This document shows positions 4,028-41,256 of a DNA stretch of 41,544 nt, piece by piece. The position numbers and the translations under genes were made by a program. The notes under the pieces were generated by a model. That model saw nothing but the letters and a program-made list of their open reading frames with translations. It did no database searches and was not told the origin of the DNA. Origin of the DNA: an uncultured SAR116 cluster alpha proteobacterium (lineage in GTDB: Bacteria; Pseudomonadota; Alphaproteobacteria; Puniceispirillales; Marisalimonadaceae); contig CACHVW010000005.1 of NCBI GenBank assembly GCA_902583415.1, positions 1-41,544 of the forward strand, in the 5' to 3' direction. How positions within the stretch are numbered: position 1 is the first letter of the stretch; the number at the start of each line of letters is the position of its first letter.

Positions 4028-4035
4028 TTTGTTTT

Positions 4036-4341
4036 CTAAAATGTTGTTTCTCCAAAATCTTGAGTAACTCCACCAACAAAGTGGATAGTTTTAGGTGATA
4101 AGGTTTTGACATATTTGGCTATGTTTTCGTCGATTAACTTATCAATTTTTTTCATTGATTCAGCATCAGGAAACTCCCATAAAACCACACTTACGTTGGG
4201 TGTTTGCGGATTTTTCATAGCTCTAAACCTAACTCCTTTTACTTGTTGAAGTAAATTAGGCCATCTAGTTTCAAGTATTGATTCGAATAATTCACAATCT
4301 TCAGTAGATGCGAAGGTTCTTACAAAAATTTTTATTAACAT
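4036..4341 (-). CDS. Small dimeric alpha/beta-barrel-like protein
   Basis: A 101-residue protein beginning MLIKIFVRTFAS. I chose this start because GGAG sits 6 bases upstream; an earlier in-frame ATG seven codons upstream has no such site. Strand (LIKIFVRTF), helix, strand (VRFRAMKN), strand (NVSVVLWEF) and helix suggest the antibiotic-biosynthesis-monooxygenase-like ferredoxin fold. It is the first gene of the leftward trio with the class III aminotransferase, and its promoter region (4342-4440) is shared with the divergent nrtS-like gene. No catalytic residues can be assigned. Confidence 0.6.
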   Translation of the reverse strand: MLIKIFVRTFASTEDCELFESILETRWPNLLQQVKGVRFRAMKNPQTPNVSVVLWEFPDAESMKKIDKLIDENIAKYVKTLSPKTIHFVGGVTQDFGETTF

Positions 4342-7544: not shown

Positions 7545-8711
7545 CTAATAAGATTTTGGGAGTCCAAGAACACGTTCAGAGATATAATTTAAAATCATTT
7601 GAGCGCTAACAGGAGCCAATTTAGGGATCAAAGATTCTCTCAATAACCTCTCAACATGATATTCTTTAGCATATCCCATACCACCTAAAGTTACGACTGC
7701 TTGCGTTGCTGCTTTAAATCCAGCTTCAGCTGCAAAATATTTAGCTGCGTTGGCCATTCCTCCTGCGTTTTCACCTTTATCGTATTGATAAGCTGCTTTT
7801 GCAATTAGTAGTTCTGCAGCTTCTAATTCAATCCAATTTTCTGATAATGGGTGTTGAATACTTTGATTTTTCCCAATAGGTCTATTAAAAACCATTCTAT
7901 CATTTGCGTACTTAACTGCCCTTGATAATGCATTTTTACCTATTCCTAGAGCTTCTGCGGCAATAAGAATTCTCTCAGGGTTAAGGCTGTCTAGAATATA
8001 TTTAAACCCCTTACCTTCTTCACCAATTCTGTCAAATTCAGGAACTTCAAGATTATCTATAAATATTTGGTTGCTATCAACCGCAGCTCTGCCCATCTTG
8101 GAGATTTCTCTTACTTCTATTTTTTCTCTATCTAAATTTGTATAAAACAAAGTTAAACCGTCTGTATTTTTTTTACATTCTTCAATAGGACTTGTTCGGG
8201 CTAATAAAAGTATTTTGTCAGCTATTTTAGCAGTTGATGTCCAAATTTTTTGACCATTAACTTGATATCCATTGTTTATTTTTTTTGCAAATGTTTTTAA
8301 TCTGCCAGTATCTAAGCCTGAATCTGGTTCAGTAACCCCAAAGCAAGTTTTTTCTTTTCCTAAAATCAATGGTGGTAGCCACTTATCCTTTTGCTCTTTA
8401 GTTCCATATACTACAATTGGGTGTGGTCCAAAAATATTAATATGTATTGAAGATGCGGCAGCCATGCCGCCACCTGTTTCTGAAATTTTTTGCATAAAAA
8501 TTGATGCCTCACTCACACCTAAATCACTTCCTCCAAACTCTTTAGGCATACAAATGCCTAACCAACCCCCACTTGCTACCTCTTCGTAAAACTTTTGGGG
8601 AAATTGACTTTCTTTATCGCATTGAAGCCAATATTCATCATTGTAGTTTTTCATAATATTATTCACTGATTCAATAATAGATAACTGAGTTTGATTTAGA
8701 TTAAATTCCAT
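7545..8711 (-). CDS. Acyl-CoA dehydrogenase
   Basis: FAD-dependent alpha,beta-dehydrogenation of an acyl-CoA, passing electrons to electron-transfer flavoprotein. TCFGVTEPDSGLD and QKIWTSTAKIAD are the FAD-contact strands of the middle domain. GGMGYAKEYHVERLLRES is the C-terminal helix motif. The usual GT-(S/T)-E-I segment after it reads APVSAQMI, so a catalytic glutamate at the medium-chain position is missing. A glutamate is present in LNPERILIA at the position used by isovaleryl-CoA dehydrogenase-type enzymes. The length of 388 aa is normal. It sits between an AhpD-like gene (4 bases) and the CoA-transferase. The substrate is not known. Confidence 0.85.
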   Translation of the reverse strand: MEFNLNQTQLSIIESVNNIMKNYNDEYWLQCDKESQFPQKFYEEVASGGWLGICMPKEFGGSDLGVSEASIFMQKISETGGGMAAASSIHINIFGPHPIVVYGTKEQKDKWLPPLILGKEKTCFGVTEPDSGLDTGRLKTFAKKINNGYQVNGQKIWTSTAKIADKILLLARTSPIEECKKNTDGLTLFYTNLDREKIEVREISKMGRAAVDSNQIFIDNLEVPEFDRIGEEGKGFKYILDSLNPERILIAAEALGIGKNALSRAVKYANDRMVFNRPIGKNQSIQHPLSENWIELEAAELLIAKAAYQYDKGENAGGMANAAKYFAAEAGFKAATQAVVTLGGMGYAKEYHVERLLRESLIPKLAPVSAQMILNYISERVLGLPKSY

Positions 8712-28579: not shown

Positions 28580-28958
28580 AAACAATCCCCTTATTTTAAT
28601 TGTTTATTTATAGTAAGAATTTTTCAAAATCATACCACAACAATATATTTATAAACATTAGAATAATCTTATAATTGAAAATTAATCCTTATATGAAATT
28701 AGATAAATTATGTGGCCTCGTAGCTCATCTGGATAGAGCTCAAAATTCCTAATATTTGGTTAGATGATAAATAGTTATTTTTAAATGAATATTTGTTTTG
28801 TAAATGAAAAATAAATTAAATCATTGTAAGTATTAGTGTTTTTTAATTTTTAAATATTTAAAATTATATTATAAACTAAATTTTCATAATACAATTTCTT
28901 ATAAAAAAATTGACTAATATTATTTACAACACTTCTATTTGAAATAATTTTTATTTAC
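28580..28958. other. Intergenic left boundary of the island
   Basis: 379 bases with no credible gene. It holds the SDR promoter at its left side and the first 5'-half copy of tRNA-Arg (28671-28763). The rest is very AT-rich and I see nothing else supportable in it. Gene content changes from core metabolism to accessory genes here. Confidence 0.6.
28671..28763 (+). repeat. 5'-half copy of tRNA-Arg(CCU) with upstream flank (copy R1)
   Basis: From 28714 the sequence follows the intact tRNA-Arg gene: the first stem differs by one base (GGCCTCG for GGACTCG), the D arm is identical, and the anticodon loop TTCCTAA is kept. Similarity fades in the variable region, with no T arm or CCA end. The 43 bases before it match the flank of copy R2 (30710-30792) better than that of the intact gene, so R1 and R2 are copies of one another. 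It cannot make a functional tRNA. Confidence 0.8.
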
Positions 28959-30611
28959 TCAAATCAAAGCTTTAAAATAATTTGATAAATGTTTTTCATA
29001 TAGTTTCCATTCTTCTGAACTATTTAAGTAAATATTTTTTTTTACTTGAGCAAAGGAGGCTGTGTTTACATATCTTTTCCCTTTAAAAAAATTTTGGCAT
29101 TCATCTTCCCATTTGATCCCTATAAAAGATAATAAATCATTTAGCTCATCATTAAAATTATTAATAAACTTTTCATAAGAAATTGTGAAAATTTGATCAT
29201 TGAAATTGTTGACATAAAAAGACATTATCTCTTTATAAATTCTATAATATTCAATTATGTTTGTTAATTTGTTTGAAAAATTATTCGCATCACCATAGAA
29301 ATTACTCTTGTAGTTTGACCAACAAAGCGGTTTTATGTCTCTTTTAATATGTATTATTTTAACATTTGGAAAAGCATGTGTAATGAACCCAATCCATTTG
29401 AAATTGAGTGGAGTTTTATCAGTAAAAAAGGGAGTTTTAATATCATTCATAAGAACTTTAGAAATATAGTTTTTTTTTAAAAGCTCAATATTATCGTTTG
29501 TTAAATTATCATTGACTAAGTTTAATTTGGAAAGTTCTTTGGTAAAAAAACCTATTTCTCCTAGGGCTGTTATTTTAGTATGTTTTGATAAAACTTGTTC
29601 TATTAAAGAAGTTCCTGATCTTGGCATTCCTAATATAAAAATAGGTTGTATAGGATTACTATTTATGTTTTTCATAAACTTAATTTTATTTTTATTTTCA
29701 AACTTCCGTTTAATTATTGGTAATAGTTTTTTTTCATTTTCTATGTCATATGGATTTAGTTTCTCTTTTAAATTATTAGCTTTTTTATAATATAAAAATG
29801 ACTTATCATAATTTTCTAAATCATTAAAAATTTTTCCTAGTGTGAAATAAAGATCAACTTTCCTAACTTCAGAGAGCGCGTTTTGGTCAATTGAAAAAAT
29901 TTTATCTAAAATTTCATCTTTCTCTTTAAACTTTTTTACAAGTCCTATTAAAGAAAATACATCCGTACTATTTGGATACAATTCTAAATATTCCATTAAA
30001 TAATTTATACCAGTCTCAAATTGACCCATACTTATATAAGTATTCCCTAAATCTTTAAGATAATTTACTTGACATCTATCAATTGAAATAGCTTTTTTGA
30101 GATTTTTGATTGCAAGTTCATGTTTATTTATTTGAATATAAATTTTAAATAAGTTGTAAAAAGCCGAGTGAGAATTTTTATCTATAAGAACTAATTGTTT
30201 TAATAGTTTTATCGCTTTTTTATAATCTTCACTTTCTATGTAAATTATTGATAAATTTAAATATGGCAAAGTAAATTTATTATTATGTGAAATTGCTTTC
30301 TCATAGAAATATATAGATTTTTTAAAATTTTTTTCTTTAAAATAGATTATCCCTAAATTATTTAATGGATCAACATATCTATTATTAAGATCAAAAGATT
30401 TTTGGAATGAGTTTTTAGCTTCCTGATATTTATTTAAAGACATTTGAATTATACCTTGTAAATTAAAAGCTTTTGAAGAATTAGGATATTTTTGTATTAA
30501 TAGCCGAATTTCAATTAAAGCTTGATCAAAATTTTGTGTATTTAAAAATTTGACTATTGGTTGAAATTTTTGATTTACAGGATTTCTTTTTACTAACAAT
30601 TCTTTATGCAT
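28959..30611 (-). CDS. TPR-repeat sulfotransferase
   Basis: A 550-residue protein. Residues 1-290 form about seven tetratricopeptide repeats (for example the segment from SKAFNLQGIIQMSLNKYQEA onward). Residues 320-550 form a PAPS-dependent sulfotransferase domain, with the 5'-phosphosulfate loop GMPRSGTSLIEQV (330-336 core) and the 3'-phosphate site IIHIKRDIKPLCWSNY (R424, S432). TPR-sulfotransferases of this type are common in marine alphaproteobacteria and resemble tyrosylprotein sulfotransferases; the acceptor could be a protein, glycan or small molecule. It has no signal peptide. The gene stands alone between two partial tRNA-Arg copies, as though carried as a single-gene cassette. Codon and base use are extremely AT-rich. 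Confidence 0.85.
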   Translation of the reverse strand: MHKELLVKRNPVNQKFQPIVKFLNTQNFDQALIEIRLLIQKYPNSSKAFNLQGIIQMSLNKYQEAKNSFQKSFDLNNRYVDPLNNLGIIYFKEKNFKKSIYFYEKAISHNNKFTLPYLNLSIIYIESEDYKKAIKLLKQLVLIDKNSHSAFYNLFKIYIQINKHELAIKNLKKAISIDRCQVNYLKDLGNTYISMGQFETGINYLMEYLELYPNSTDVFSLIGLVKKFKEKDEILDKIFSIDQNALSEVRKVDLYFTLGKIFNDLENYDKSFLYYKKANNLKEKLNPYDIENEKKLLPIIKRKFENKNKIKFMKNINSNPIQPIFILGMPRSGTSLIEQVLSKHTKITALGEIGFFTKELSKLNLVNDNLTNDNIELLKKNYISKVLMNDIKTPFFTDKTPLNFKWIGFITHAFPNVKIIHIKRDIKPLCWSNYKSNFYGDANNFSNKLTNIIEYYRIYKEIMSFYVNNFNDQIFTISYEKFINNFNDELNDLLSFIGIKWEDECQNFFKGKRYVNTASFAQVKKNIYLNSSEEWKLYEKHLSNYFKALI

Positions 30612-30709
30612 TTAGAAACATTAGTTTATATATATTTATAAATCAAAATATAATAAAGCCAATACTTAATATTGATTTTAAGTCATTTGTAAATATAAAG
30701 AATTATCTA

Positions 30710-30804
30710 ATAATTGAAAAAAAATCTTTATATGATATCAGGTTAAGTGTGTGGCCTCGTAGCTCATCTGGATAAAGCCAAAAGATTCCTAACAAAACGG
30801 TTCG
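30710..30804 (+). repeat. 5'-half copy of tRNA-Arg(CCU) with upstream flank (copy R2)
   Basis: From 30753 it matches the first stem (GGCCTCG) and the D arm (GTAGCTCATCTGGATA) of the tRNA, with GAGC mutated to AAGC. The anticodon loop ATTCCTAA is still readable, after which only GGTTCG is reminiscent of a T loop. The upstream flank (ATAATTGAAAA, then TTTATATGA) is shared with R1 at the same distance. R1 and R2 together bracket the sulfotransferase gene as direct repeats about 2.04 kb apart. Confidence 0.78.
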
Positions 30805-30871
30805 TCTGATTTGATAAAATAACTCAATAATATCAGTAGTTTATTAGATACAAATATGTGAATAAAGTTTA

Positions 30872-30888
30872 TGTGAATGATTTGTGAA
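30872..30888 (+). repeat. 17-bp direct repeat, left copy
   Basis: TGTGAATGATTTGTGAA, repeated exactly at 31630-31646. The pair encloses the intact tRNA and the broken ribbon-helix-helix-like gene. The left copy is itself preceded by a related GTGAATAAAG. Confidence 0.6.
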
Positions 30889-30937
30889 TAGTAAAGGTGG
30901 TGTTTTTGAGGATATTTTGATAATAAACACCTAATAA

Positions 30938-30965
30938 TTGATAGTTCCTTAAAAGTAAATATAAT
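30938..30965 (+). promoter_or_regulatory. Promoter of the tRNA-Arg gene
   Basis: TTGATA at 30938-30943, a 16-base spacer, then TATAAT at 30960-30965, ending 16 bases before the tRNA. This is a near-consensus housekeeping promoter at the distance expected for a tRNA transcript with a short leader. Confidence 0.7.
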
Positions 30966-30981
30966 GGTGTTTGTGGTATTT

Positions 30982-31058
30982 GGACTCGTAGCTCATCTGG
31001 ATAGAGCACCAAATTCCTAATTTGGGGGTAGCAGGTTCGAGTCCTGCCGAGTTCACCA
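30982..31058 (+). tRNA. tRNA-Arg, anticodon CCU
   Basis: A complete 77-base cloverleaf. The acceptor stem GGACTCG pairs with CGAGTTC (one G-T pair), the D arm stem is GCTC/GAGC, and the anticodon stem CCAAA/TTTGG holds the loop TTCCTAA with CCT at 31016-31018. The T arm is GCAGG/CCTGC with loop TTCGAGT. Discriminator A is followed by an encoded CCA. This tRNA reads AGG. It is the intact member of a set of five related sequences and is the probable integration target of the island. Confidence 0.96.
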
Positions 31059-31088
31059 CATTTAAAATCCCCATATAACTTCAAATTT

Positions 31089-31110
31089 GAGTTCTAAAGA
31101 CTGTTCCTAA
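31089..31110 (+). repeat. Conserved segment downstream of the tRNA
   Basis: GAGTTCTAAAGACTGTTCCTAA follows the intact tRNA by 30 bases. A close match (two mismatches) lies at 33282-33303, 29 bases after the 3'-end copy R3. The shared spacing shows that the 3' flank was duplicated together with the tRNA end. Confidence 0.65.
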
Positions 31111-31144
31111 AATAGAGTGTATGATTGAACTTTAGACATTAAAA

Positions 31145-31174
31145 AACCTCTCTATATTCAGAAATAGAAAGGTT
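31145..31174. terminator. Bidirectional hairpin terminator
   Basis: AACCTCTCTAT pairs with ATAGAAAGGTT (10 of 11 positions) around an eight-base loop, with a run of As before it and CTTTATT after it. It can end the tRNA transcript from the left and the broken gene from the right. Confidence 0.7.
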
Positions 31175-31202
31175 CTTTATTCATTATAAAATGGTTTAAA
31201 AA

Positions 31203-31660
31203 CTAATGTCTAACCATAGACTTAATAACATTCAAATCACTCATATCTTCTTTCATTTTCGTATTCTGATTCGATACCAGAAGCCTTGCACCTTCTTCAA
31301 TCAAGTTTGAGAGAGTTTTGTGTCGATAATCTGCAATCTGTCTTGTTGCTTCTTTTAGTGATGCATCCACATGGAAATAAATTGGTTTTTTTTAATAAAT
31401 TAACATTGTTTTGCTTTATCTACAAATATACCACTGGTGAATCTTCTAAACTCAACTTCTTGTTGGTTGGCTTGGTGTTTCTTTGCACGAACCTGTGCTA
31501 GCGCGTATCACGCATATCAACAAAAGGTTCGTTTCTTGGGATAGTCGTGCGTTCTAGTTGTGCGAACTTTCTTGTACTCACTTCCTGTTTTAGTCGTTCT
31601 TGATTTTCAAACTCTCCTTTTTTCGATCGTGTGAATGATTTGTGAAGGTTAAGTATTCAA
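31203..31660 (-). pseudogene. Broken ribbon-helix-helix-like gene, possible mobile-element relic
   Basis: Coding signal runs leftward in three consecutive frames. Segment one (about 31660 to 31500) reads HKSFTRSKKGEFENQERL and continues to VDMRDTR before a TAG. Segment two (about 31504 to 31400) reads ALAQVRAKKHQANQQEVEF and continues to a TAA. Segment three (31385 to 31203) reads PIYFHVDASLKEATRQIADY, then HKTLSNLIEEGARLL, to a TAG. The last segment has the strand-helix-helix pattern of ribbon-helix-helix DNA-binding proteins, and an 8-A run with an in-frame stop just before it marks the break. No start codon opens it. Base composition is visibly richer in G and C than around it. It may be the remains of a regulator or mobilisation gene of the element that built the island; it could also be two genes. 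Confidence 0.6.
31630..31646 (+). repeat. 17-bp direct repeat, right copy
   Basis: An exact copy of 30872-30888, 758 bases away, at the 5' edge of the broken gene. Confidence 0.6.
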
Positions 31661-31787
31661 ATTTAACATGACCTTTAATTTCTCATTTAGTATGGTTCAT
31701 GGCAAATAAGATTTAATAAAATCAGGTGAATTTTAAGAATTGTATAGTTTTTTATATGACATGAATTTCTTATAAAATAGTATCGAT

Positions 31788-32771
31788 CTAATCATTTGTT
31801 TTTGAAATACAATCAATTAAAATTTTCAATGATCTGTCATAATCAGGTAAGGCAAATAATAAGGTATTAATATTTAATTTACGAACTTTTAAAAGAAAAT
31901 TTTTCAGACCCTCTACATCTGTTATTAATTCTTCAATACCGGCACCACTTTTTATAAGATGCGAATTTTTCTTGCTAAAATAACCCTTTAAAGGATTACT
32001 ATAAGATAATTCACTAATAAAATTTTCTGCAGCCTTTTGATCTACATCTTTATCTAAAAGAAATTTGTAATAGTCTTTTGCCTCAGACAATGTGTTTCCA
32101 ACAAATAATGACATTGCGCTAGAAACGTTTTTAGAACCAACCACATTAAGTAAATGATTTTTTCTAATAGTTGTAAATAAAGAGTGAGCGTATTTTTTTG
32201 CAAATTCACGTCCCTCTTTGGAGAAAGCAGCACACATAATTTCTGTTCTTTTATTTTGAATGTCACTTCCAATTATTGAGCTAAGTGTTTTATAATGAGC
32301 TTTTTCTGCACTTTTAAATCTATCAGTCCAAGTGGCTGCAAATTCATATACTTTCTTAGACGAATCTAAATATTCTTTTTTAAAGTAATCAAATTCATCC
32401 TTTTTCCATCCCCCAACAATGTTGATGGCGAATCTATTTTTAAACTCAATATTTAATCTAGAAGCTACGTGTGCAACTAATTCAGGTTCATAAGCAAAGG
32501 TGGAAAATGTTCCAAAAATTTTTGAATATTTAGTTTTTGATAGTAGAAATGAGGATAGGGTAATTGACTCAATTGCATCTCCTGTAATTTCTTTTTCTCC
32601 AGAATACCCTTTCCATCGAGAAATTGGAACAAAATTAAAAGGGTTATTTGGTAATGATTTTTCTACAATTTTCAGCCTTTCAGCAATTTTTTCTAAAGTA
32701 GGTTTCCATTGTGGGTTTTTCGTCATGACTAGACCACCGGTTACATTCATTCCAAAAAGACCAAATTTCAT
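31788..32771 (-). CDS. RutA-like flavin-dependent monooxygenase (luciferase-like family)
   Basis: FMN-dependent enzyme of the bacterial-luciferase-like superfamily, 327 aa. FVPISRWKGYSGEKEITGD (from about residue 46) and RFAINIVGGWKKDEFDYF (about 132-149) match the layout of RutA and related enzymes that open heterocycles or attack C-S bonds, which have MIKLRGFGG and RFGVNLVTGW at these places. LNINTLLFALPDYDRSL near the C-terminus corresponds to the usual ending. It stands alone in its cassette between the tRNA and the first 3'-end copy and is read leftward, away from the biosynthetic genes. Substrate unknown. A reduced-flavin partner is not seen nearby. Confidence 0.8.
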   Translation of the reverse strand: MKFGLFGMNVTGGLVMTKNPQWKPTLEKIAERLKIVEKSLPNNPFNFVPISRWKGYSGEKEITGDAIESITLSSFLLSKTKYSKIFGTFSTFAYEPELVAHVASRLNIEFKNRFAINIVGGWKKDEFDYFKKEYLDSSKKVYEFAATWTDRFKSAEKAHYKTLSSIIGSDIQNKRTEIMCAAFSKEGREFAKKYAHSLFTTIRKNHLLNVVGSKNVSSAMSLFVGNTLSEAKDYYKFLLDKDVDQKAAENFISELSYSNPLKGYFSKKNSHLIKSGAGIEELITDVEGLKNFLLKVRKLNINTLLFALPDYDRSLKILIDCISKTND

Positions 32772-33516
32772 TCTTTAAACCTTATCTACCTTTATTAATA
32801 AACTTCAATAATTACAAAAATTGCCATTAGCATATTATTACACCAAAATCATATATTTTTTTTAAGTAAAATTCTATTTCCTGAGATCACTAAAAAATTA
32901 AATCACATTTAAAAATAATGTTTTCAAAGTCTAAAATTTTTAAAAAATTAAACAAGAGTTAATTGATAATTAATTACTCCAAATTTTTTTTATTATGAGC
33001 AATCCAATTTTCCATTAAATATATTAACTCATTCATAATGATAAAATTTTATTTGTACAAACTTGCATATTTTACATTTAACAGACTTTAAAAATCATAA
33101 ATAAATTTATTAACGATTTATAATTGATACTTTTTATTTTAACTGTTTTATAGAAGATAATTCTTTGATATAAGATTATACAAATTTAGGAGATGAAATA
33201 CTTTTTTTCTAATCTTAAGGTTATAGTTTAGATACCTATTGCTGTCACCACAATTCAAACCCTTGTATTCTTATATTTAATGAGTTCTAAAGAGAGTTCC
33301 TAAACTATCTAATATGGTTGGATATCCTCCTAGTTTTATATGCTAGTAAATTCATCAAATATTGACCTGGTTTGGGCGGGGTAGCTCTATCAAAAACGAG
33401 TAAATACTGAACCATTAATTGTTGAAAATGTATCACTTGTTTTATATCAAAATAATTAATAATATAGCAAAAACATAGCAATAACAAATTAATAAATTTA
33501 TAGGAATCTAAAACTA
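32772..33516. other. Intergenic region with a 3'-end tRNA copy
   Basis: 745 very AT-rich bases between the divergent monooxygenase and NodB-like genes, with no credible gene. It must hold promoters for both. It contains the 3'-end tRNA copy R3 (33243-33303) and a short GC-richer patch at about 33366-33400 that stands out in composition but that I cannot assign. Confidence 0.55.
33243..33303 (+). repeat. 3'-end copy of tRNA-Arg flank (copy R3)
   Basis: TGTCACCACA corresponds to the TTCACCACA end of the tRNA. It is followed at the same distance as in the intact locus by GAGTTCTAAAGAGAGTTCCTAA, which matches 31089-31110 with two mismatches. The tRNA body itself is lost. The match of both pieces and the spacing make chance unlikely. 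Confidence 0.68.
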
Positions 33517-34233
33517 ATGGACAACGTCTTTCCATTTACTTTTAACAAAATTGAAGAATATTATGCTGCTGCAATTGAACTTGGTTATGAAGTTATGACA
33601 TGCTTTGATTATACTCAAAGAAAGAAAAACTTACCTCCACTAACAATTGTAAATAGGGTTGACATAGATTTTTCTATGAGCAAAGCAGAAAGACTTTGCA
33701 AAATATTCAATCAAATTGGTATTAAAGCAACTTTTTTTGTTAGGTTACATGCACCTGAATACAATCTATTTTCATTTGAAAATTACCGAATACTTAAATA
33801 TATTCAAAAATCAGGACATGAAATTGGATATCACAGCGAAATTATTGATCAATCTGCTATTTGGAAAGAGAGTGCTGATGATTGTTTATTAAGAGACATT
33901 GACATCCTTAATAGATTAATTGAGACAAATATACAAGGTATAGCTAGCCATGGCGGATTGACAGGACTTAACAATTTTGACTTTTGGAAGAATAAAAAAG
34001 CTAAAAATTTTGGTGTATTATATGAAGCTTATGAAGAAACAGGTGCATTTAACCTTTATAAAAATTCTTTCTACATAAGTGACTCTCAATGGACAGCTTG
34101 GAAATGTTATGACCGTGGAAAATTGCAGGTTAATGATAAGAGAACACCACTAGAGCACTTTAAGAATTTGCATTCTAAAATATATATGTTAATTCATCCT
34201 GATACATATTACGACAGACATATTTATGAATAA
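33517..34233 (+). CDS. NodB/WbmS-like polysaccharide-deacetylase family protein
   Basis: A 238-residue protein of the NodB-homology fold. Motif 1 is NRVDIDFS with D49 and D51, followed by GIKATFFVRLHAPEYN, then motif 2 GHEIGYHSE with H106 as the likely first metal histidine. The second histidine expected four residues later is not there (SEIID follows), as in WbmS-like proteins found in surface-polysaccharide loci. Late in the sequence MLIHPDTYYDRH may supply another ligand. Hydrolysis of an N-acyl or other amide group is the family reaction; activity here is uncertain. The gene ends 8 bases inside the next gene, so the two are coupled. First rightward gene of the biosynthetic region. Confidence 0.72.
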   Translation: MDNVFPFTFNKIEEYYAAAIELGYEVMTCFDYTQRKKNLPPLTIVNRVDIDFSMSKAERLCKIFNQIGIKATFFVRLHAPEYNLFSFENYRILKYIQKSGHEIGYHSEIIDQSAIWKESADDCLLRDIDILNRLIETNIQGIASHGGLTGLNNFDFWKNKKAKNFGVLYEAYEETGAFNLYKNSFYISDSQWTAWKCYDRGKLQVNDKRTPLEHFKNLHSKIYMLIHPDTYYDRHIYE

Positions 34234-35167
34234 AATGCTAAATATTTCAACTTTGTTAACCAAACTTAATGTTGATTACAAACTCGTTGGAAAATATTCA
34301 AAATTTAATGGTTTTTCTTCTTTTTTTGAGCAAACAGGTAAATCATGTACTTTTATAAAAGAAATAAATCCTTACACAATTGAAGTTTTAAGTAAAAGTG
34401 TTGCCCGCATATTTATAGTAAATGAACTTCCATTAATCGAAGATGATTGCAAAACCTTCATAGTAGTAAAGGATCCTCGTCGAGTTTTTTTTACATTGGT
34501 ACGAGCTGTAAATAAGCAAGCACCAATTAAAGAGACTTTTATCCATCCAACATCTATAGTTTCACCAAATGCAAAAATAGGACAAAATGTATATATAGCT
34601 GAGTATTGCATAATAGGTGAATGTGAAATTGGAAACTCAACAAACATTGGGTCCTACTCAAAGATCCATGATGGTGTTTTAATTGGAAACTGCGTAGATA
34701 TCCATGACCATTGCAACATTGGTGGAATTGGTTTAGGACATGTTTGGGAAGATAATAAATATGTAAATCAAACACATATAGGTACAGTATTAATAGAAGA
34801 CTTTGTTGAACTTCTCTCCTATACTAATGTAGGTAAAGCCACATTAGGAACAACTAGAATTGGGAAAGGAACTAAAATAGATTTTCGCTGTAGCATAGGT
34901 CATAACGCTAATATAGGCGAACATAATTTGATTATGGCTAACTCTATTATAAGTGGTTCTGTCAATCTTGGTTCAAAAAATATTGTTGGAGCAGGCACTA
35001 TTTTTCGAGAAACTATTAAAGTAGGTTCTGAAAATTTTTTTGGAATGCACAGTTCTGTCATAAAAAACACTAATGACAAAGAAATTTGGTACGGTTCACC
35101 AGCAAAATTTCAGGGGAAAAGAACTAAAATAATGGAATTAATATTTGGAATACGCAATAACTTTTGA
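34226..35167 (+). CDS. LpxD-like left-handed beta-helix acyltransferase
   Basis: A 313-residue protein with an N-terminal globular part (1-100) and hexapeptide repeats forming a left-handed beta helix (105-300): HPTSIVSPNAKIG, AEYCIIGECEIG and further turns. KIDFRCSIGHNANIGEHN aligns with the catalytic region of LpxD, with H226 as the candidate catalytic histidine, and GGIGLGHVWEDNKYV occupies the loop where LpxD has its GFG segment. LpxD moves a 3-hydroxyacyl chain from acyl carrier protein to an amino sugar. This copy is divergent, lies away from any lpx genes, and sits next to a carrier-protein gene, so it may transfer an acyl group between that carrier and an amine. It overlaps the previous gene by 8 bases. 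Confidence 0.8.
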   Translation: MNKMLNISTLLTKLNVDYKLVGKYSKFNGFSSFFEQTGKSCTFIKEINPYTIEVLSKSVARIFIVNELPLIEDDCKTFIVVKDPRRVFFTLVRAVNKQAPIKETFIHPTSIVSPNAKIGQNVYIAEYCIIGECEIGNSTNIGSYSKIHDGVLIGNCVDIHDHCNIGGIGLGHVWEDNKYVNQTHIGTVLIEDFVELLSYTNVGKATLGTTRIGKGTKIDFRCSIGHNANIGEHNLIMANSIISGSVNLGSKNIVGAGTIFRETIKVGSENFFGMHSSVIKNTNDKEIWYGSPAKFQGKRTKIMELIFGIRNNF

Positions 35168-35216
35168 TATTAATTTGTTACCTGACTTTGCTGTTCAAGA
35201 CTGTTTTAATCTTTGA

Positions 35217-35247
35217 TAGTAAAATAAATTAAAGCTACTTTTTACTA
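35217..35247 (+). other. Possible hairpin before the carrier-protein gene
   Basis: TAGTAAAA can pair with TTTTACTA around a 15-base loop. It is AT-only except for two pairs, so it is weak; it may mark an mRNA processing point or a poor terminator after the acyltransferase gene. Confidence 0.25.
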
Positions 35248-35324
35248 TAAGCTTATTTGATCTCAACAAGAAAAGGTCATGATGAAATAAAAATAATTTT
35301 AAAAACATTTTAAAGGATAATTAC

Positions 35325-35621
35325 ATGAACCTAAATGAATCTATTGATTTAATTTCAAGTTTAGTAAAAACAATTTTTGACGAAGGTAATTTTAGAGGAA
35401 ATATTGATAAAAACACACCCTTATTTGGTAACGAAAGTATATTAGATTCAATGTCTCTTGTTCAATTATGTTTAGCACTTGAAGATAAAGCAGGTGAAAT
35501 GGGGTTTGAGTTTGATTGGAATTCTGAAAAAGCAATGTCTAAAGCAGAAGTGATGTTCAGATCTATTGAATCTTTGGGTAATGAGTTTTACACTCAATTT
35601 AAAAAAAGTTCTGGTAAGTAG
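35325..35621 (+). CDS. Free-standing acyl/peptidyl carrier protein
   Basis: A 98-residue acidic, helical protein. ESILDSMSLVQLCLALED holds the phosphopantetheine attachment site, with S42 in DSM (DSL in most carriers). Helix 1 (INLNESIDLISSLVKTIF-like) and the hydrophobic third-helix region with SIESLG fit the four-helix carrier fold. It is longer at the C-terminus than house-keeping AcpP and lacks the usual strongly acidic DSLD helix, which suggests a dedicated carrier for the adenylation enzyme encoded at 39793-41256. AAGGA lies 7 bases before the ATG. It is separated from the LpxD-like gene by 157 bases and from the next gene by the 3'-half tRNA copy R4. Confidence 0.8.
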   Translation: MNLNESIDLISSLVKTIFDEGNFRGNIDKNTPLFGNESILDSMSLVQLCLALEDKAGEMGFEFDWNSEKAMSKAEVMFRSIESLGNEFYTQFKKSSGK

Positions 35622-35655
35622 AATGTTTTTCATTATATAAAAAATCGATTATTTT

Positions 35656-35704
35656 ATTCCTAATTGGGAGGCAACAGATTAAAAACCTGTCGTGTTCACC
35701 ACAA
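35656..35704 (+). repeat. 3'-half copy of tRNA-Arg(CCU) (copy R4)
   Basis: ATTCCTAATTGGGAGGCAAC begins in the anticodon loop of the tRNA. It continues through a decayed T arm (ACAGA against CCTGT) to CGTGTTCACCACA, which matches the acceptor 3' strand, discriminator and CCA plus two flanking bases. No 5' half precedes it. It starts at the same ATTCCTAAT where the 5'-half copies R1 and R2 end, which places the likely crossover in the anticodon stem-loop. Confidence 0.8.
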
Positions 35705-35803
35705 CTAAAATTTATTTAAAATTAAATATTAAAATGTCATATTATATGACCTACCTGTAAATTATAGTAATTACTAAGTTTAAAAAATTGAGTTTTATAA
35801 GTT

Positions 35804-37021
35804 ATGGATAAAATCAAAACAAAAGCGATTATAAGAAAATATTCCTTAATACCTAGTAAGGCAAGTAAAGCAATATTAAAAAGTATCCGAGAAGATAAAA
35901 ATTTTATTTCAACTTTTAAGGATTTTATTACTGAAATTGATTATAAAAATCTAAAGAATAAATATAAAGAAAAGGTTTTATACCTAAAAAATAATAAAAT
36001 TGTTATTTTACCTAAAAATTTACCATTTTTATATCTGATTAAGGATGAAACAGCTGACTTTAGCTGGAAAATAAACGAACCTTCAACAATATCAAATAAT
36101 AATACAGATCTTGTTCTTAAAACAACTAATGTTGAAGGTGTCAATCCCTCATTATTATCTATTATTTTAAATTTAGTTAAAAAGGAATTGCATAATCATC
36201 ATCATTATCCAGAGTTTTTAGAAATAAATAAAACCAGCAAATCATTAATTTTAGAACTTTTTAACAAAGTAAAGTTTGCTTCACGATTATCTGATATCAC
36301 ACCTTCTTTGAATAGTTGCATTCAAAAAGCTATCAAAAGTAAAAAAATTAATATTTTAACTCCTTTATGTCCAGACTATTCAAATATAGATTTAGGCAAA
36401 GGATTATACACTCTTACTTTTGATGGTTTAGGTTCAGACATAGGCGTTACGGCAAAAAGATTATTAGAAAACTTGGAATGTTTGCATTCAGTTTTCAAAC
36501 AACATGACATAAAAGTAACTCACACCGCTGCAATTGGTGACTTTGAAGCTTTATCAGAGGATACTTGTAAAAGGGTAAATTTATCGCGTAAAAAATTCAT
36601 TGAACATTTAATAGTTAGTCAAAAAAAACTGAAAGAATATGCTGGAGAAAAACTTAAAACAATACTTTTTACGGATTTATGTAATGGATTGGATAATTGG
36701 ATCAAAATTCATTCCAAATATTATGAAATGTTGTTAAATAAAGATTTTGGCAAAATTAATCTTTCAAACAATGATATTGAAAATATCAGTAATTCTAGAA
36801 AGCCTCTATTATATAGATGGTTTGGAAAAATTTCTGACGAAGAACTTTTAAAAGTTGTTTTATGGCAGGGAGCAGAGTATGCTACTATGGGCCATATTAT
36901 TGACGAGGTTATAGAAAATCCAGTCATAATTGGGGCAGATCATGTTAAAATGGCTCCTTTTTATGGAATTAGTTCAAGTGTACCTATATTATATTTAACT
37001 TCTAACTACATAAGGAATTAA
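35804..37021 (+). CDS. Unrecognised 405-residue biosynthetic-cluster protein
   Basis: I do not recognise this family with confidence. The N-terminal third is lysine-rich and ends near a HNHHHYPEF patch (130-138). A central domain carries ILTPLCPDYSNID (CPDY at 189-192), LYTLTFDGLGSDIGVTAKRL (201-220) and AAIGDFEALSEDTCKRV (242-258). The C-terminus ends VIIGADHVKMAPFYGI and VPILYLTSNYIRN. It is soluble, with no signal or membrane span. Cysteines, aspartates and histidines in these blocks look like active-site candidates. It is one base from the 2-oxoglutarate oxygenase gene, so the two are probably translated together. A very distant similarity in layout to PvcA/isonitrile synthases, which also pair with such oxygenases, is possible but weak. 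Confidence 0.6.
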   Translation: MDKIKTKAIIRKYSLIPSKASKAILKSIREDKNFISTFKDFITEIDYKNLKNKYKEKVLYLKNNKIVILPKNLPFLYLIKDETADFSWKINEPSTISNNNTDLVLKTTNVEGVNPSLLSIILNLVKKELHNHHHYPEFLEINKTSKSLILELFNKVKFASRLSDITPSLNSCIQKAIKSKKINILTPLCPDYSNIDLGKGLYTLTFDGLGSDIGVTAKRLLENLECLHSVFKQHDIKVTHTAAIGDFEALSEDTCKRVNLSRKKFIEHLIVSQKKLKEYAGEKLKTILFTDLCNGLDNWIKIHSKYYEMLLNKDFGKINLSNNDIENISNSRKPLLYRWFGKISDEELLKVVLWQGAEYATMGHIIDEVIENPVIIGADHVKMAPFYGISSSVPILYLTSNYIRN

Positions 37022-37022
37022 A

Positions 37023-37640
37023 ATGCTTCTTAATTATTATAAAGAGAGAGAAAGCTATATTAATGATGGGACTATTATGCTCAATCAACATAATAATATT
37101 TTTACACAAACGGAACTACAAAATCTAGAAAAATTAGCTGATCAACTCCCATTTGAACATGTAGAAATAGGTGATGCTGATGAGCCAAATTATTTAGAAG
37201 TCGGAAGACTAATAACTGATATAGATAAACCTAAAATAGTTAATCAAACAATATCAAAACAAGTTATTGGAATAGTAAGTTCAAAAGAAAAAATGGAATT
37301 CTACAAATTTTTGTTAGATAAACCAGAATTACATATTAGAAGAATGCAATATAATGTAATGGCAGAAAATTGTTTTGTTGGTTTACATCTAGACACTGAC
37401 TCCAACCCAGATTACCTCGTAGCTTGCGTTGTTCAACTAGGAGGTAACTTCATAGGTGGCGATTATGTTGTATATGGTGGAGGAATTCCTCCAAGATCTC
37501 TTTCTCCAACAAAGTTTTCTGTAATTTTTAGTAATTGCAAGTACGAACATGAAGTTACAAAAGTTAAATCTGGAATGAGAAAATCCCTCGTGTTTTTTTT
37601 AAGTACTAATAATGGTAAAAATTCAAGAATTAGAGAATAA
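37023..37640 (+). CDS. 2-oxoglutarate/Fe(II)-dependent oxygenase
   Basis: A 205-residue protein with the double-stranded beta-helix facial triad: H122 and D124 in VGLHLDTDSNPDY, and H176 in NCKYEHEVTKV. R186 in SGMRKSLVFFLS is the likely 2-oxoglutarate anchor, ten residues after the distal histidine as in prolyl-4-hydroxylase-like enzymes. RRMQYNVMAENCFVG and GGDYVVYGG fit the flanking strands. The family hydroxylates free or carrier-bound amino acids, among other substrates. AAGGAA lies before the ATG. It is one base after the 405-residue gene and 3 bases before the flavin monooxygenase gene, so it sits in the core of the cluster. Confidence 0.8.
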   Translation: MLLNYYKERESYINDGTIMLNQHNNIFTQTELQNLEKLADQLPFEHVEIGDADEPNYLEVGRLITDIDKPKIVNQTISKQVIGIVSSKEKMEFYKFLLDKPELHIRRMQYNVMAENCFVGLHLDTDSNPDYLVACVVQLGGNFIGGDYVVYGGGIPPRSLSPTKFSVIFSNCKYEHEVTKVKSGMRKSLVFFLSTNNGKNSRIRE

Positions 37641-37643
37641 GAA

Positions 37644-38720
37644 ATGAACTTAGGTTATTTTACTCAACCTTTTCATCCAACTACTAAAATGCTCTCTCAA
37701 TCTCTTGAAGAAGACTTTGAAGCTGGCGTAATAGCTGATAGAAATGGATATTCAGAAGCTATTTTTGGAGAACATGCAACAGATGCTTATGAAACCATTA
37801 CATCTTCTTTAACTTTTATAGCTAGCTTATGTTACAATACTAAAAACATAAAACTTGGTACAGGAACAATTAATATACCAAACACTCATCCAGCTTTTGT
37901 TGCCTCAACGGTCTCAATGCTTGATCATATGCTTAAAGGCCGTTTATTATTAGGTGTTAGTATGGGCGCGCTTGCATCTGATTGGGAAATATTTGGGACT
38001 TATGACTTAAACAAACAAGCAATGTTTGAAGAATCTCTGCATCAAATTCTTCAGTTATGGAAAACTAAGCCACCTTATGATTTAGAGGGAAATTTTTGGA
38101 AAATAACAACAAAAAAGACTATGAATCTCGAACTAGGCCTAGGAGAAATAATGAAACCCTTTCAACAACCTCACCCAGAAATATTGTGTACAGCCTTGTC
38201 ACCTAACTCAGTTGGATTAAGGAAGGCTGGACAAAAAGGTTGGTCTCCAGTTTCATCTAATTTTATTCAAGAACATTATGTATCTTCACACTGGAAACAA
38301 TATTCTGAAGGTTCTAAATCAGTTAACATAAACGCAGACACAAAAAAATGGCGTGTGGCTAAAATGGTTTTTGTAAATGATGATAATGAAAAAGCATTAA
38401 AGTATGGAAAAGGTCTTGATGGGCCATATGCAAAATGCATAAATCAAATTATTAAAAAATTAAAAGCAGCCAACAAATTAAATTTTCTAAAAGAAAATGA
38501 ACATCAATTAGACGACGAAATTACACTTGACTATTGTCTAAGTAAGTTGGTTATAGCAGGAGATCCTAGTTCAGTTAAGGATCAAATATATAAATTTGCA
38601 GAGAAAACTGGAACTTTTGGAACCTTATTATATGTTGGAGTTGATTGGCTTGATAAAAAACTTGCTAAAAACTCTATGGAGCTTATGGCTAACAAAGTCA
38701 TTGCAGACATGCACATTTAG
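37644..38720 (+). CDS. Luciferase-like flavin-dependent monooxygenase
   Basis: A 358-residue LLM-class enzyme of the limonene-monooxygenase/alkanal-monooxygenase-like subgroup. The N-terminus reads LGYFTQPFHPTTKM, then DRNGYSEAIFGEHATDAYET, followed by KLGTGTINIPNTHPAFVAST and GRLLLGVSMGALASDW, all standard for FMN-binding TIM-barrel enzymes of this class. SPNSVGLRKAGQKGWSPVSS is the later flavin-phosphate region. It would need reduced FMN from a separate reductase. Such enzymes act as N- or C-hydroxylases or Baeyer-Villiger oxygenases in natural-product pathways. It is distinct from the RutA-like enzyme at 31788-32771. It follows the 2OG oxygenase gene by 3 bases. Confidence 0.83.
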   Translation: MNLGYFTQPFHPTTKMLSQSLEEDFEAGVIADRNGYSEAIFGEHATDAYETITSSLTFIASLCYNTKNIKLGTGTINIPNTHPAFVASTVSMLDHMLKGRLLLGVSMGALASDWEIFGTYDLNKQAMFEESLHQILQLWKTKPPYDLEGNFWKITTKKTMNLELGLGEIMKPFQQPHPEILCTALSPNSVGLRKAGQKGWSPVSSNFIQEHYVSSHWKQYSEGSKSVNINADTKKWRVAKMVFVNDDNEKALKYGKGLDGPYAKCINQIIKKLKAANKLNFLKENEHQLDDEITLDYCLSKLVIAGDPSSVKDQIYKFAEKTGTFGTLLYVGVDWLDKKLAKNSMELMANKVIADMHI

Positions 38721-38755
38721 AATGTATTTAAATTATATTATTTCAGGGAAACATA

Positions 38756-39613
38756 ATGAAACAACTTCAAACAATTAATTTTTTTGAGGGTAAATGGATG
38801 GAAGGCAACCCAAAACTAATTGGCCCACTTAGCCATGGATCTTGGATGGGGTCTCCTGTATTTGACGGTGGAAGATGTTTTGACAGTCTTGCACCTGATC
38901 TTAATGAGCATTGCAAGAGAGTTATAAAATCAGCTAAAGCTATGCTTATGGATCCAAAAGTTTCTTCAGAGGAAATTTTTGATATATCAAAAGAAGGAAT
39001 TAAAAAATTAGGATCAAGTAAAGATTTATACATTAGACCATTAATTTGGGCTGAAGATAGTATGGGACTTCTAAGATGTGACCCTCATAGTGCTAAGTTT
39101 TGTGTTTCAATAATAGAAATGCCTATGCCCGATGAAAATGGTTTTTCTGCATGTGTTACGAAATTTACCAGACCTACTGCACTTTCTGCCCCTACTGATG
39201 CTAAAGCTGCATGTCTGTATCCAAATGGAGCAAGAGCTATGCAATATGCATTCGAAAAAGGTTTTGATAATGCTATAGTGTTAGATCCATCGGGCTATAT
39301 TGCTGAATTTGCTTCATCAAATATTTTTATAGTTATTGATAATCAACTATATACGCCAGAAGATAATAAAACTTTTTTAGCAGGTATAACTAGAAAAAGA
39401 GTTATAGAATTATGTAAAGAGTTAGATATTGTTGTGAATGAGACTAAAATTACTTTAAAAATGTTAAAAGAATCAAATGAAATATTTAGCACTGGGAATT
39501 TTGGTAAAATAATGTATCTAAATAATTTAGATGGCATAACTTTAAAACCAGGAATATTTTATAAAAAACTAAAAAAAGCATATTGGGACTATTCTAGTAA
39601 TTTTTTACTTTAA
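38756..39613 (+). CDS. Class IV aminotransferase (branched-chain type)
   Basis: Fold-type IV pyridoxal-phosphate enzyme of 285 residues. The Schiff-base lysine is K150 in TDAKAACLYPNGARAM. E184 in AEFASSNIFIV lies 34 residues later, as in branched-chain aminotransferase. FLAGITRKRVIEL and STGNFGKIMYL complete the cofactor site, and the N-terminal HGSWMGSPVFDGGRCFDS is the substrate loop. IlvE, D-amino-acid aminotransferase and aminodeoxychorismate lyase share this fold; the two-residue insertions here favour IlvE-like transamination. In this position it may make or remove the amino group of a non-standard amino acid. GGGA is 6 bases before the ATG. A copy of a housekeeping gene recruited to the cluster is possible. 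Confidence 0.8.
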   Translation: MKQLQTINFFEGKWMEGNPKLIGPLSHGSWMGSPVFDGGRCFDSLAPDLNEHCKRVIKSAKAMLMDPKVSSEEIFDISKEGIKKLGSSKDLYIRPLIWAEDSMGLLRCDPHSAKFCVSIIEMPMPDENGFSACVTKFTRPTALSAPTDAKAACLYPNGARAMQYAFEKGFDNAIVLDPSGYIAEFASSNIFIVIDNQLYTPEDNKTFLAGITRKRVIELCKELDIVVNETKITLKMLKESNEIFSTGNFGKIMYLNNLDGITLKPGIFYKKLKKAYWDYSSNFLL

Positions 39614-39718
39614 AAATACACATAACTCACCATAAACGGTTTTACAAACTTAGTAATTTAATTAATAATTAATTGAGAATTTATTTTTTATATAAAATTA
39701 AGTAATCTCGAGGCACAC

Positions 39719-39799
39719 ATGTTAGAAATTGGCGAATATCTAGAAAACGGAGTTGCTTGCCTATTTAAACTACCTTCATTGGATATAAAAATATGCTAG
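39719..39799 (+). CDS. Possible 26-residue peptide overlapping the adenylation gene
   Basis: A short frame MLEIGEYLENGVACLFKLPS plus six residues ending in cysteine. GAGG lies 5 bases before its ATG. Its stop TAG lies just after the start codon of the adenylation gene (ATGCTAG), an arrangement that would couple translation of the two. It could be a leader peptide or a true small product; it may equally be chance. It has no recognisable family. Confidence 0.3.
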   Translation: MLEIGEYLENGVACLFKLPSLDIKIC

Positions 39800-41256
39800 A
39801 TATAAGAGATTTTTATCAGAAAATTTGGGACAATATCCAATATTCTGATAAACCATTCTTTATTGATAGTTTGAAGAATGAAAAAAAATATAAAGATTTA
39901 TTTCATGACATAAAAAAAGTATCACAAATTTTTTTAAAAAAAACAAATCAACTAACTGTTATTTTAGCTAAGAAAAATTATGAACACTATTGTTGTATTA
40001 TTAGCACGGTAATATCTGGTAACACTTGGATTCCATTAAGCCTTGAAAGTCCAATCGAACGTAATTTACAAATCATAAAAAATATAAAACCAAAACATTT
40101 TATCACTGACCAAGAACTCACTCCAGAAATAAAAAGAGATTTAAAAAAATTAAAAATTAATATCTACGATATATCGGATTGTCTTAACGGAATTAAAGTA
40201 GACGAAAGTATAACTTTCAATTTTAATTATAGAAGATCTTCATTGAGCATGATTTATTTTACATCAGGATCTACCGGCACTCCAAAGGGTGTTAAAATAT
40301 CTCAAGAAGGTCTATCAACAATAGTACCAAAAATTGTTCAACTGCTAGGAATTTCTAAAGAAATTTGGGGTGATTATCATGATTTGAGCTTTGTAATTTC
40401 AATACCCATTCTTTTTTCGTGTATCTATAGTGGAGGGACAATTTATTGTGCCTCTAATAAATTAGACCAGTTTATGCCTTTGCAAAGTTTGATAAAAAAT
40501 AAAGTTTCTTGTTTAGTTACTGTTCCCTCAACTCTTGCTCGCATCTCTAAAGACAAGCATTTTGATCAATTATTTTCTTCCTTAAAAACTATTGTATCTT
40601 GTGGTGAACCATTTCCCATTGATTTAATGAGCTTATATCTAAAAAATAAAAACATCCAACTGTTTAATTTTTATGGATCAACTGAAGTGACCGCATGGAT
40701 TTTTTATCATCTTTGTAAAAAAGAAGATATTTCAAAATATTCGAATTATGGCTATGCACCAATTGGGAAGAAGATAGAAGGAAATGAAATTATAATTACT
40801 GACAAAAATTTACTTTTAGTAAGAGGTCCACAAGTAACACCCGGTTATTTGGGGAAAGATAAAAAAGCACATGTTCAAAAATATATGAATAAAGATTGGT
40901 TTTCCACTGGAGATATTGTTGAGAAAATCGATGATGTGCTAATTTGTAAAGGACGACTTGATAACCAGATAAAACTTAATGGATATCGTATCCACTTAAT
41001 GGATATTGAAACACAAATCAAAAAGATTAAAAAAATTGAAGACTGTATGTGTGTTGTTGAAGAGATAAACAGCCAAAAAATAATTACAGCAATATTAGTT
41101 ACTCAATTAGACATAACGGTTTTAGAACTAAGAGAACTACTCAAAAATAAATTACCAAATTATATGTCTCCTAGAAAAGTTTTTTGTGTTGCTAAAAAAC
41201 CAATAAATAAAAATGGAAAATTAGATAGGGTTAAATTAAAAGATTTAGTATTGTAA
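39793..41256 (+). CDS. Free-standing amino-acid adenylation enzyme (AMP-binding, DltA-like)
   Basis: Adenylate-forming enzyme of 487 aa that activates a carboxylic acid with ATP and loads it on a carrier thiol. Core motifs in order: A3 IYFTSGSTGTPKGVKIS (154-170), A4 region YHDLSF with D197 (the aspartate that normally binds the amino group of an amino-acid substrate), A5 NFYGSTEVTAW (292-302), A7 STGD (371-374), A8 GRLDNQIKLNGYRIHLMDIE (387-406), and A10 NKNGKLDR with catalytic K476. No condensation or carrier domain is attached, so it resembles DltA and single-residue loading enzymes. The partner is probably the carrier encoded at 35325-35621. The substrate cannot be read reliably. The 3' end converges on the AcpS-like gene with 10 bases between the stops. 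Confidence 0.86.
   Translation: MLDIRDFYQKIWDNIQYSDKPFFIDSLKNEKKYKDLFHDIKKVSQIFLKKTNQLTVILAKKNYEHYCCIISTVISGNTWIPLSLESPIERNLQIIKNIKPKHFITDQELTPEIKRDLKKLKINIYDISDCLNGIKVDESITFNFNYRRSSLSMIYFTSGSTGTPKGVKISQEGLSTIVPKIVQLLGISKEIWGDYHDLSFVISIPILFSCIYSGGTIYCASNKLDQFMPLQSLIKNKVSCLVTVPSTLARISKDKHFDQLFSSLKTIVSCGEPFPIDLMSLYLKNKNIQLFNFYGSTEVTAWIFYHLCKKEDISKYSNYGYAPIGKKIEGNEIIITDKNLLLVRGPQVTPGYLGKDKKAHVQKYMNKDWFSTGDIVEKIDDVLICKGRLDNQIKLNGYRIHLMDIETQIKKIKKIEDCMCVVEEINSQKIITAILVTQLDITVLELRELLKNKLPNYMSPRKVFCVAKKPINKNGKLDRVKLKDLVL

Follow-up and report, generated by a model that had tools for sequence, protein, structure and literature searches.

A locus in the genome of a SAR116-cluster alphaproteobacterium contains one intact tRNA-Arg(CCU) gene, two displaced 5' halves of this tRNA to its left and two displaced 3' halves to its right, with protein genes between them. 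This raises the question of which copy represents the native gene of the host and how the others came to be there. The window analysed is contig 5, 41,544 nucleotides in length, of a 1.50-Mb, 68%-complete genome. It was compared with 39 congeners and other members of the same order, and some pattern scans covered 40 or 136 genomes.

Displaced halves, empty sites and filled sites

The tRNA-Arg(CCU) gene at 30982-31058 is the sole tRNA found there (ARAGORN; 62.6 bits with Rfam). The fragments, R1 to R4, were located by an ungapped scan, with the 12.9-kb island shuffled 40 times (Markov-2) as the null. R1 (36), R2 (24), R3 (18) and R4 (21) all score far above the shuffle maximum of 13.75, ruling out chance similarity and bearing out the first-pass annotation, made from the letters of the window, which had recognized one intact gene, two 5' halves and two 3' copies. 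All five sequences lie on the same strand, and R1 to R4 all break at the anticodon loop TTCCTAA (Table 1). The annotation had treated R3 and R4 as 3'-end copies, with only R4 beginning in the anticodon loop; this holds for R4, but R3 is likewise a 3' half starting in this loop, in degenerate form. All 5' halves end at tRNA positions 39-43, and the 3' halves of the genus start at positions 32-33 (in G013, G016, G021, G006, the window and one of the two G048 copies), the exception being the other G048 copy, which starts at position 13.

The core genome is fixed on both sides of this locus, with tkt-pgk-gap-rpe-gph-SDR on the left and hydrolase-PepF-AarF-pnt on the right, and the native tRNA follows the left-hand genes in about 30 congeners. 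At least 12 congeners have an empty site, with a lone tRNA-Arg(CCU) located 120-135 bp from SDR and an SDR-to-hydrolase distance of 372-877 bp. R1 is found exactly at this position in the window. It is, thus, R1 that holds the native position, and not the intact tRNA, which had been taken for the target of integration. In 13 other congeners the site is filled, with inserts of 1.6-9.8 kb and more that differ in gene content (NeuB, epimerases, DegT, an RmlA-type transferase, radical SAM, polysaccharide deacetylase and adenylation enzymes, among others). Three genomes (G013, G021 and G006) retain tRNA-Arg(CCU) at the locus in the classical manner, as an intact gene and one 3' half. Congeners therefore display both of the states sought among relatives, lone-tRNA empty sites and alternative cassettes, and the same fragments and genes do not recur in fixed order across distant lineages, the cargo being different in relatives. 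The right core neighbour of the window island lies on contig 25, so the island, initially thought to end near R4, continues past it, from 28.7 kb to beyond the contig end (41544). The inner element measures 2.4 kb, the outer interval from R1 to R4 6.9 kb and the island at least 12.9 kb.

Table 1. Features of the tRNA-Arg(CCU) island in the window
Feature	Position	Strand	Evidence
Native upstream (promoter) region of tRNA-Arg(CCU)	28586-28713	+	Right of core SDR; empty-site congeners have the same sequence and spacing (~120-135 bp)
R1, native tRNA 5' half, putative outer attL	28714-28756 (tRNA 1-43); 28714-28753 (tRNA 1-40)	+	40/43 to native tRNA; core TTCCTAA 28746-28752
Cargo: TPR and sulfotransferase protein, 550 aa	28959-30611	-	PF13469, E 1.4e-33
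Native-type tRNA promoter before R2	30670-30752	+	Aligns locally with the R1 upstream region (score 36) and the native upstream region of G017 (43); null maximum 27-28
R2, tRNA 5' half, inner-element attL	30753-30792	+	25/26 over tRNA 1-26, weaker to 40; core TTCCTAA 30786-30792
Inner-element left arm	30793-30981	+	b-arm and TGTGAA arm repeats at 30857, 30872 and 30883 (last two 11 bp apart)
Spare, element-borne tRNA-Arg(CCU)	30982-31058	+	~190 bp inside left end of inner element; only intact copy found
Element 3' flank and terminator-like repeat	31059-31176	+	TGAGTTCTAAAGACTGTTCC at 31088; matches G044
Decayed element gene	31204-31391	-	Matches an Int439-element gene of G042 (53% over 62 aa, E 3.7e-21)
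Cargo: luciferase-like flavin protein, 327 aa	31788-32771	-	PF00296, E 6e-4, below cut-off
Inner-element right arm	33158-33205	+	IHF consensus at -48 (33158-33170); a-arm GATGAAATACTTT (33192-33204)
R3, tRNA 3' half (positions 33-77), inner-element attR	33206-33250	+	33/45 identity
Element-type 3' flank behind R3	33251-33350	+	TGAGTTCTAAAGAGAGTTCC at 33281; score 45 over 97 bp vs G048 element flank, null maximum 15
Cargo: NodB-like	33517-34233	+	PF01522, E 1.9e-4, below cut-off
Cargo: hexapeptide transferase	34226-35167	+	PF00132, E 3e-19
Cargo: carrier-like protein	35325-35621	+	No family
R4, tRNA 3' half (positions 32-77), putative outer attR	35656-35701	+	35/46

The inner element and a probable outer layer

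R2 and R3 correspond to the attL and attR of an inner element of about 2.42 kb (core 30786 to core 33206), which has no integrase. The left end of this element identifies the intact tRNA. Over 326 bp, from the core through the 3' flank of the tRNA, the window is 92% identical to G044 (about 90% in the left arm); the intact tRNA itself is 100% identical to the tRNA of the G044 element, versus 86-87% to the native copies of congeners. The intact tRNA, thus, came with the element as a spare and is not the native gene. The b-arm after R2, CAAAACGGTT, has an exact match only here and in G044 among 40 genomes. The flank pattern TGAGTTCTAAAG...GTTCC occurs seven times in 136 genomes: behind the intact gene and R3 in the window genome (G000), in G044, three times in G048, and in G059, the copies in G048 and G059 likewise sitting behind tRNA-Arg(CCU) or its 3' halves. 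Because R3 bears this element-borne flank, the tRNA that was interrupted must already have been element-derived, and, given the native-type promoter before R2, it was already a hybrid; the exact order of events is uncertain.

The arms of the attachment sites are specific to the locus. The a-arm GATGAA-CACTTT, or a close variant, precedes 3' halves in five genomes, and a search for this arm with the core (two mismatches at most) gave five matches in 40 genomes, all at the tRNA-Arg(CCU) locus, versus none in the control. Five genomes (G021, G044, G048, G039 and G030) have a perfect IHF consensus 53-54 bp before the attR core, and in R3 the consensus lies at -48; the chance background is 0.0015 per 15-bp band. 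In G044, the a-arm, CTTCCTAA and the b-arm are joined in an attP-like junction between two elements. A second pair of arm repeats (31630/31641) is present inside the inner element of the window and is unaccounted for by the model.

The cargo of the inner element includes DNA (31708-32902, the region of the flavin protein) that is 88% identical to G016, in which it is located behind the native tRNA. The broken gene to its left had been described as ribbon-helix-helix-like; it has no Pfam or PHROG family and is instead the decayed remnant of an element-family gene, its homologue in G042 lying to the right of the spare tRNA.

R1 and R4 are, with less certainty, the remnants of an outer, older layer. 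The bases after R1, TATTTGGTTAGATG, match the attL arm of G036 at 11 of 14 positions (P ~4e-4 in an anchored comparison of 14 bases), this arm giving no significant match by ordinary local alignment, and no arm, IHF site or flank homologue of R4 was recognized in any relative tried. The order along the window is R1, arm, sulfotransferase, R2, arm, spare tRNA, decayed gene, flavin protein, arm, R3, the NodB-like, hexapeptide transferase and carrier genes, and R4. The element-borne flank of R3 and the element origin of the interrupted tRNA suggest that this layout is nested, rather than a row of side-by-side cassettes, as proposed in the first-pass annotation. Successive, side-by-side accretion of independent cassettes, with the position of R2 and R3 inside R1 and R4 being fortuitous, is unlikely, but it is the alternative to be taken most seriously: two elements adjoin in tandem in G044, a decayed flank of an element to the left of the intact spare tRNA in G059 hints at tandem copies, and R4 has no matches tying it to R1. 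However, the flank of R3 is element-borne, and the b-arm of R2 and the a-arm of R3 together rebuild the G044 attP, as expected if R2 and R3 derive from one interrupted tRNA.

Integrases and intact relatives of the element

No tyrosine integrase is encoded on the contig of the window, in agreement with the first-pass annotation, or in the islands of those congeners for which integrases were listed in full. The island resembles a tycheposon in the strict sense, as in Prochlorococcus, in having a tRNA at its border, variable cargo and a streamlined marine host, but such an identity is improbable, as there is no tyrosine recombinase inside it and the inner element taken alone, at 2.4 kb (versus 6.9 kb for the outer interval and at least 12.9 kb for the island), falls below the size of 4-200 kb quoted for tycheposons in PMC10872708.

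Integrases are present at tRNA-Arg(CCU) in G036, G039 and G030. The elements of G036 and G039 are 9 kb long and consist of a 5' half, an arm, a complete but diverged tRNA-Arg(CCU), two tyrosine recombinases, a Rep-like protein and a 3' half. In G030, the integrase adjoins attR; this genome also has a group I intron at the same anticodon loop. The G030 integrase is 51% identical to Int439, a 439-aa integrase found in five congeners, with 97-98% conservation, near the 3' half of tRNA-Arg(UCU) in each. A search for the integrases in known phages and IMG/VR found none.

The Int439 elements of G008 and G042 belong to a family of spare-tRNA elements defined in this analysis. They are bordered by a 5' half (positions 1-39; 38/39 and 39/39) and a 3' half (positions 33-77; 45/45), and contain a complete spare tRNA-Arg(UCU) on the opposite strand (77/77), with arm repeats read in G008. 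These are recent insertions, with a 7-bp overlap and an integrase, and the tRNA-Arg(UCU) on contig 29 of the window host provides the matching empty site, its flanks being nearly identical on either side. Since att reconstruction cannot yield a complete tRNA in inverted orientation, the spare is supplied by the element. In G013, Int439 is present but the tRNA is intact and direct, without a 5' half; both ways of keeping the tRNA therefore exist.

The inner element of the window shares most features of this family: a 5' half reaching about position 39 and a 3' half beginning at about position 33, which overlap by 7 nt within the anticodon loop (R2 and R3), a complete spare tRNA placed 160-230 bp inward of the left end, TGTGAA repeats with 11-bp spacing, a terminator flank and the gene remnant (Table 1). 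The match to the Int439 element of G008 scores 29 in the left arm block (null maximum 23) and 28 in the flank at 31059-31176 (null maximum 15). The 439-aa integrase itself is absent from the element, in which the decayed neighbouring gene remains, and the host genome, 68% complete, yielded no copy of it. Int439 or a paralogue probably carried out the recombination.

These relatives also bear on two weaker explanations. It is very improbable that the fragments are ordinary tRNA pseudogenes produced by duplication of segments and by recombination, whether homologous or illegitimate, without a site-specific recombinase: the lack of an integrase in the window and the partial degeneracy of the fragments speak for it, and the native-type promoter of R2 is what duplication would give, but the breakpoints fall in the same 7-nt loop across many genomes, the arms have an IHF site at a fixed distance and an a-arm unique to the locus, and the sister tRNA has undergone recent insertions with a 7-bp overlap and an integrase. 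Splitting of the tRNA by a group I intron or another insertion sequence in the anticodon loop, for which G030 provides a precedent, can be dismissed almost entirely, because Rfam detects no such intron in the window, ruling it out there, and the halves enclose protein genes and att arms.

Proposed mechanism and comparison with known systems

The tRNA-Arg(CCU) locus is, with high probability, an integration hot spot with at least two layers of tyrosine-recombinase insertions at TTCCTAA, the inner of which is an element of Int439 ancestry that brought its own spare tRNA and has lost its integrase. The first-pass annotation had proposed stacked integration by tyrosine recombinases with a crossover in the anticodon loop, and this is upheld by the empty sites, the varied cargo, the locus-specific att arms, the attP-like junction of G044 and the matching integrase family. 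Tyrosine recombinases would cross over within the 7-nt loop TTCCTAA, and each insertion would leave the 5' half of the target on the left and the 3' half on the right. As the element carries its own complete tRNA-Arg(CCU), neither junction would have to rebuild the tRNA. The inner element would have descended from Int439 elements, lost its integrase and come to hold the flavin-enzyme cargo.

None of the four joins of R1 or R2 with R3 or R4 is recognized as a tRNA, and no intact tRNA-Arg(CCU) other than the spare was found in the genome (68% complete). The spare is presumably the expressed tRNA-Arg(CCU). The cell may not depend on it, since a tRNA-Arg(UCU) is present and may read AGG. The host tRNA may in this way have been taken hostage, being cut in the anticodon loop without reconstruction and substituted by a complete, element-borne tRNA; the chances for and against this reading seem evenly balanced. 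Under this scenario, mutations in the displaced halves would prevent excision from regenerating a functional gene, leaving the host locked to the element. The carriage of a whole tRNA, sometimes diverged or inverted, with both halves left behind, in several elements from two families in one order suggests a route for the replacement of a tRNA gene by a foreign allele and, possibly, an addiction mechanism. It also offers a way to detect islands missed by methods relying on one fragment and an integrase, and makes Int439 a candidate integrase for SAR116-cluster islands that seem to lack one.

Phrase searches of the literature retrieved no element carrying an entire spare tRNA, a result that argues only weakly for absence. 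The islands found by Islander have a signature of one intact tRNA and a single fragment, since their attP includes part of the tRNA, by which the gene is rebuilt (PMC4383910). The locus described here has in common with them integration into a tRNA gene, a crossover centred on the anticodon, an intact gene and displaced fragments in the same orientation with cargo between them, and an empty attB in relatives (the 12 congeners with a lone tRNA). Unlike these islands, the window element leaves both halves displaced and supplies an entire tRNA gene, which in two relatives is inverted. The core is followed by non-tRNA sequence in R1, R2, G048, G036, G039, G008 and G042, the attP-borne fragment that rebuilds the target being absent from these sites and a whole spare tRNA being located inside instead. 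Archaeal integrases of the pTN3 type also use the 5' half of the tRNA and give it a new promoter, but with these integrases the junction still restores the target tRNA (PMC8371274), which the window junctions do not.

The additive flexible islands of Actinomarinales (PMC7771536) and Methylophilaceae (PMC10872708) are similar in several respects, as far as the relevant passages of these papers go: the repeats at their cassette ends are part of a tRNA, or its last 20 nt, and they share with the window a fixed location at tRNA genes, cassettes ending in repeats of part of the tRNA, cargo that varies between close relatives, and surface sugar genes. The present analysis differs from these accounts in identifying 5' and 3' halves, arms, an IHF site, an attP-like junction and a likely integrase, and in the replacement of the tRNA itself. 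Tycheposons, as cited in PMC10872708 and PMC11389934, are likewise tRNA-bordered cargo elements of streamlined marine bacteria; the inner element of the window is smaller and lacks a recombinase. Stacked integration targeting a tRNA is a known process, and the departure from the standard scheme at this locus is the displacement of both halves together with the provision of a whole spare tRNA.

Variants of tRNA-Arg(CCU) and the element flank

In G003, a related genome, the element-borne tRNA and its upstream bases are 88% identical to the window over 130 bp, whereas the sequence 3' of the tRNA differs from that of the window, suggesting recombination inside the tRNA. At the same locus in G059, which belongs to another genus, the SDR gene is adjoined by a decayed element-flank copy (the flank being the sequence 3' of the element-borne tRNA), and an intact spare tRNA-Arg(CCU) lies further on; this arrangement suggests serial replacement. 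The tRNA-Arg(CCU) of G030 is split in the anticodon loop, the same loop that is cut by integrases in relatives, by a group I intron of about 210 bp (RF00028, E 1.2e-9, under the gathering score).

Features of the window, its host genome (G000) and relatives
Feature	Genome	Locus	Positions
Element tRNA with upstream bases	G003	L046	9911-10037
Decayed element-flank copy	G059	L225	~8075-8340
Intact spare tRNA-Arg(CCU)	G059	L225	9078-9154
Intron-split tRNA-Arg(CCU)	G030	L072	17963-18252
Second TGTGAA pair	G000	window	31630-31647
Gene row	G000	window	35325-41256
400-aa integrase and tRNA-Ser(GGA)	G000	L217 (contig 25)	2704-2793 and ~3570-4049
9-kb element	G036	L071	4219-13693
9-kb element	G039	L073	5432-14574
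Int439 element genes	G042	L229	7953-9674
Int439 element genes	G013	L216	

Further features of the window and host genome

Within the inner element, at 1.6 kb from the right end, there is a second pair of TGTGAA arm repeats with 11-bp spacing, perhaps an older right arm. The gene row encodes a carrier-like protein, an unknown 405-aa protein, a 2OG oxygenase-like protein, a luciferase-like oxidase, a class IV aminotransferase and an AMP-binding enzyme; it looks like a small natural-product cluster, and is cut by the contig end. About 17 kb to the right of the island's core flank, a 400-aa integrase adjoins tRNA-Ser(GGA).

Cargo of elements in relatives

The 9-kb elements of G036 and G039 each encode two integrases and a Rep-like protein, along with small proteins that match no family; that of G036 also has two TET-associated glycosyltransferases. 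No relative of their integrase was found in the phage collections searched. The elements with the 439-aa integrase (Int439) at tRNA-Arg(UCU) in G042 and G013 encode an Acetyltransf_5 protein adjoining an acyltransferase, a pair resembling an ornithine-lipid gene pair, as well as a serine resolvase and a fusion of ParB with a methylase.
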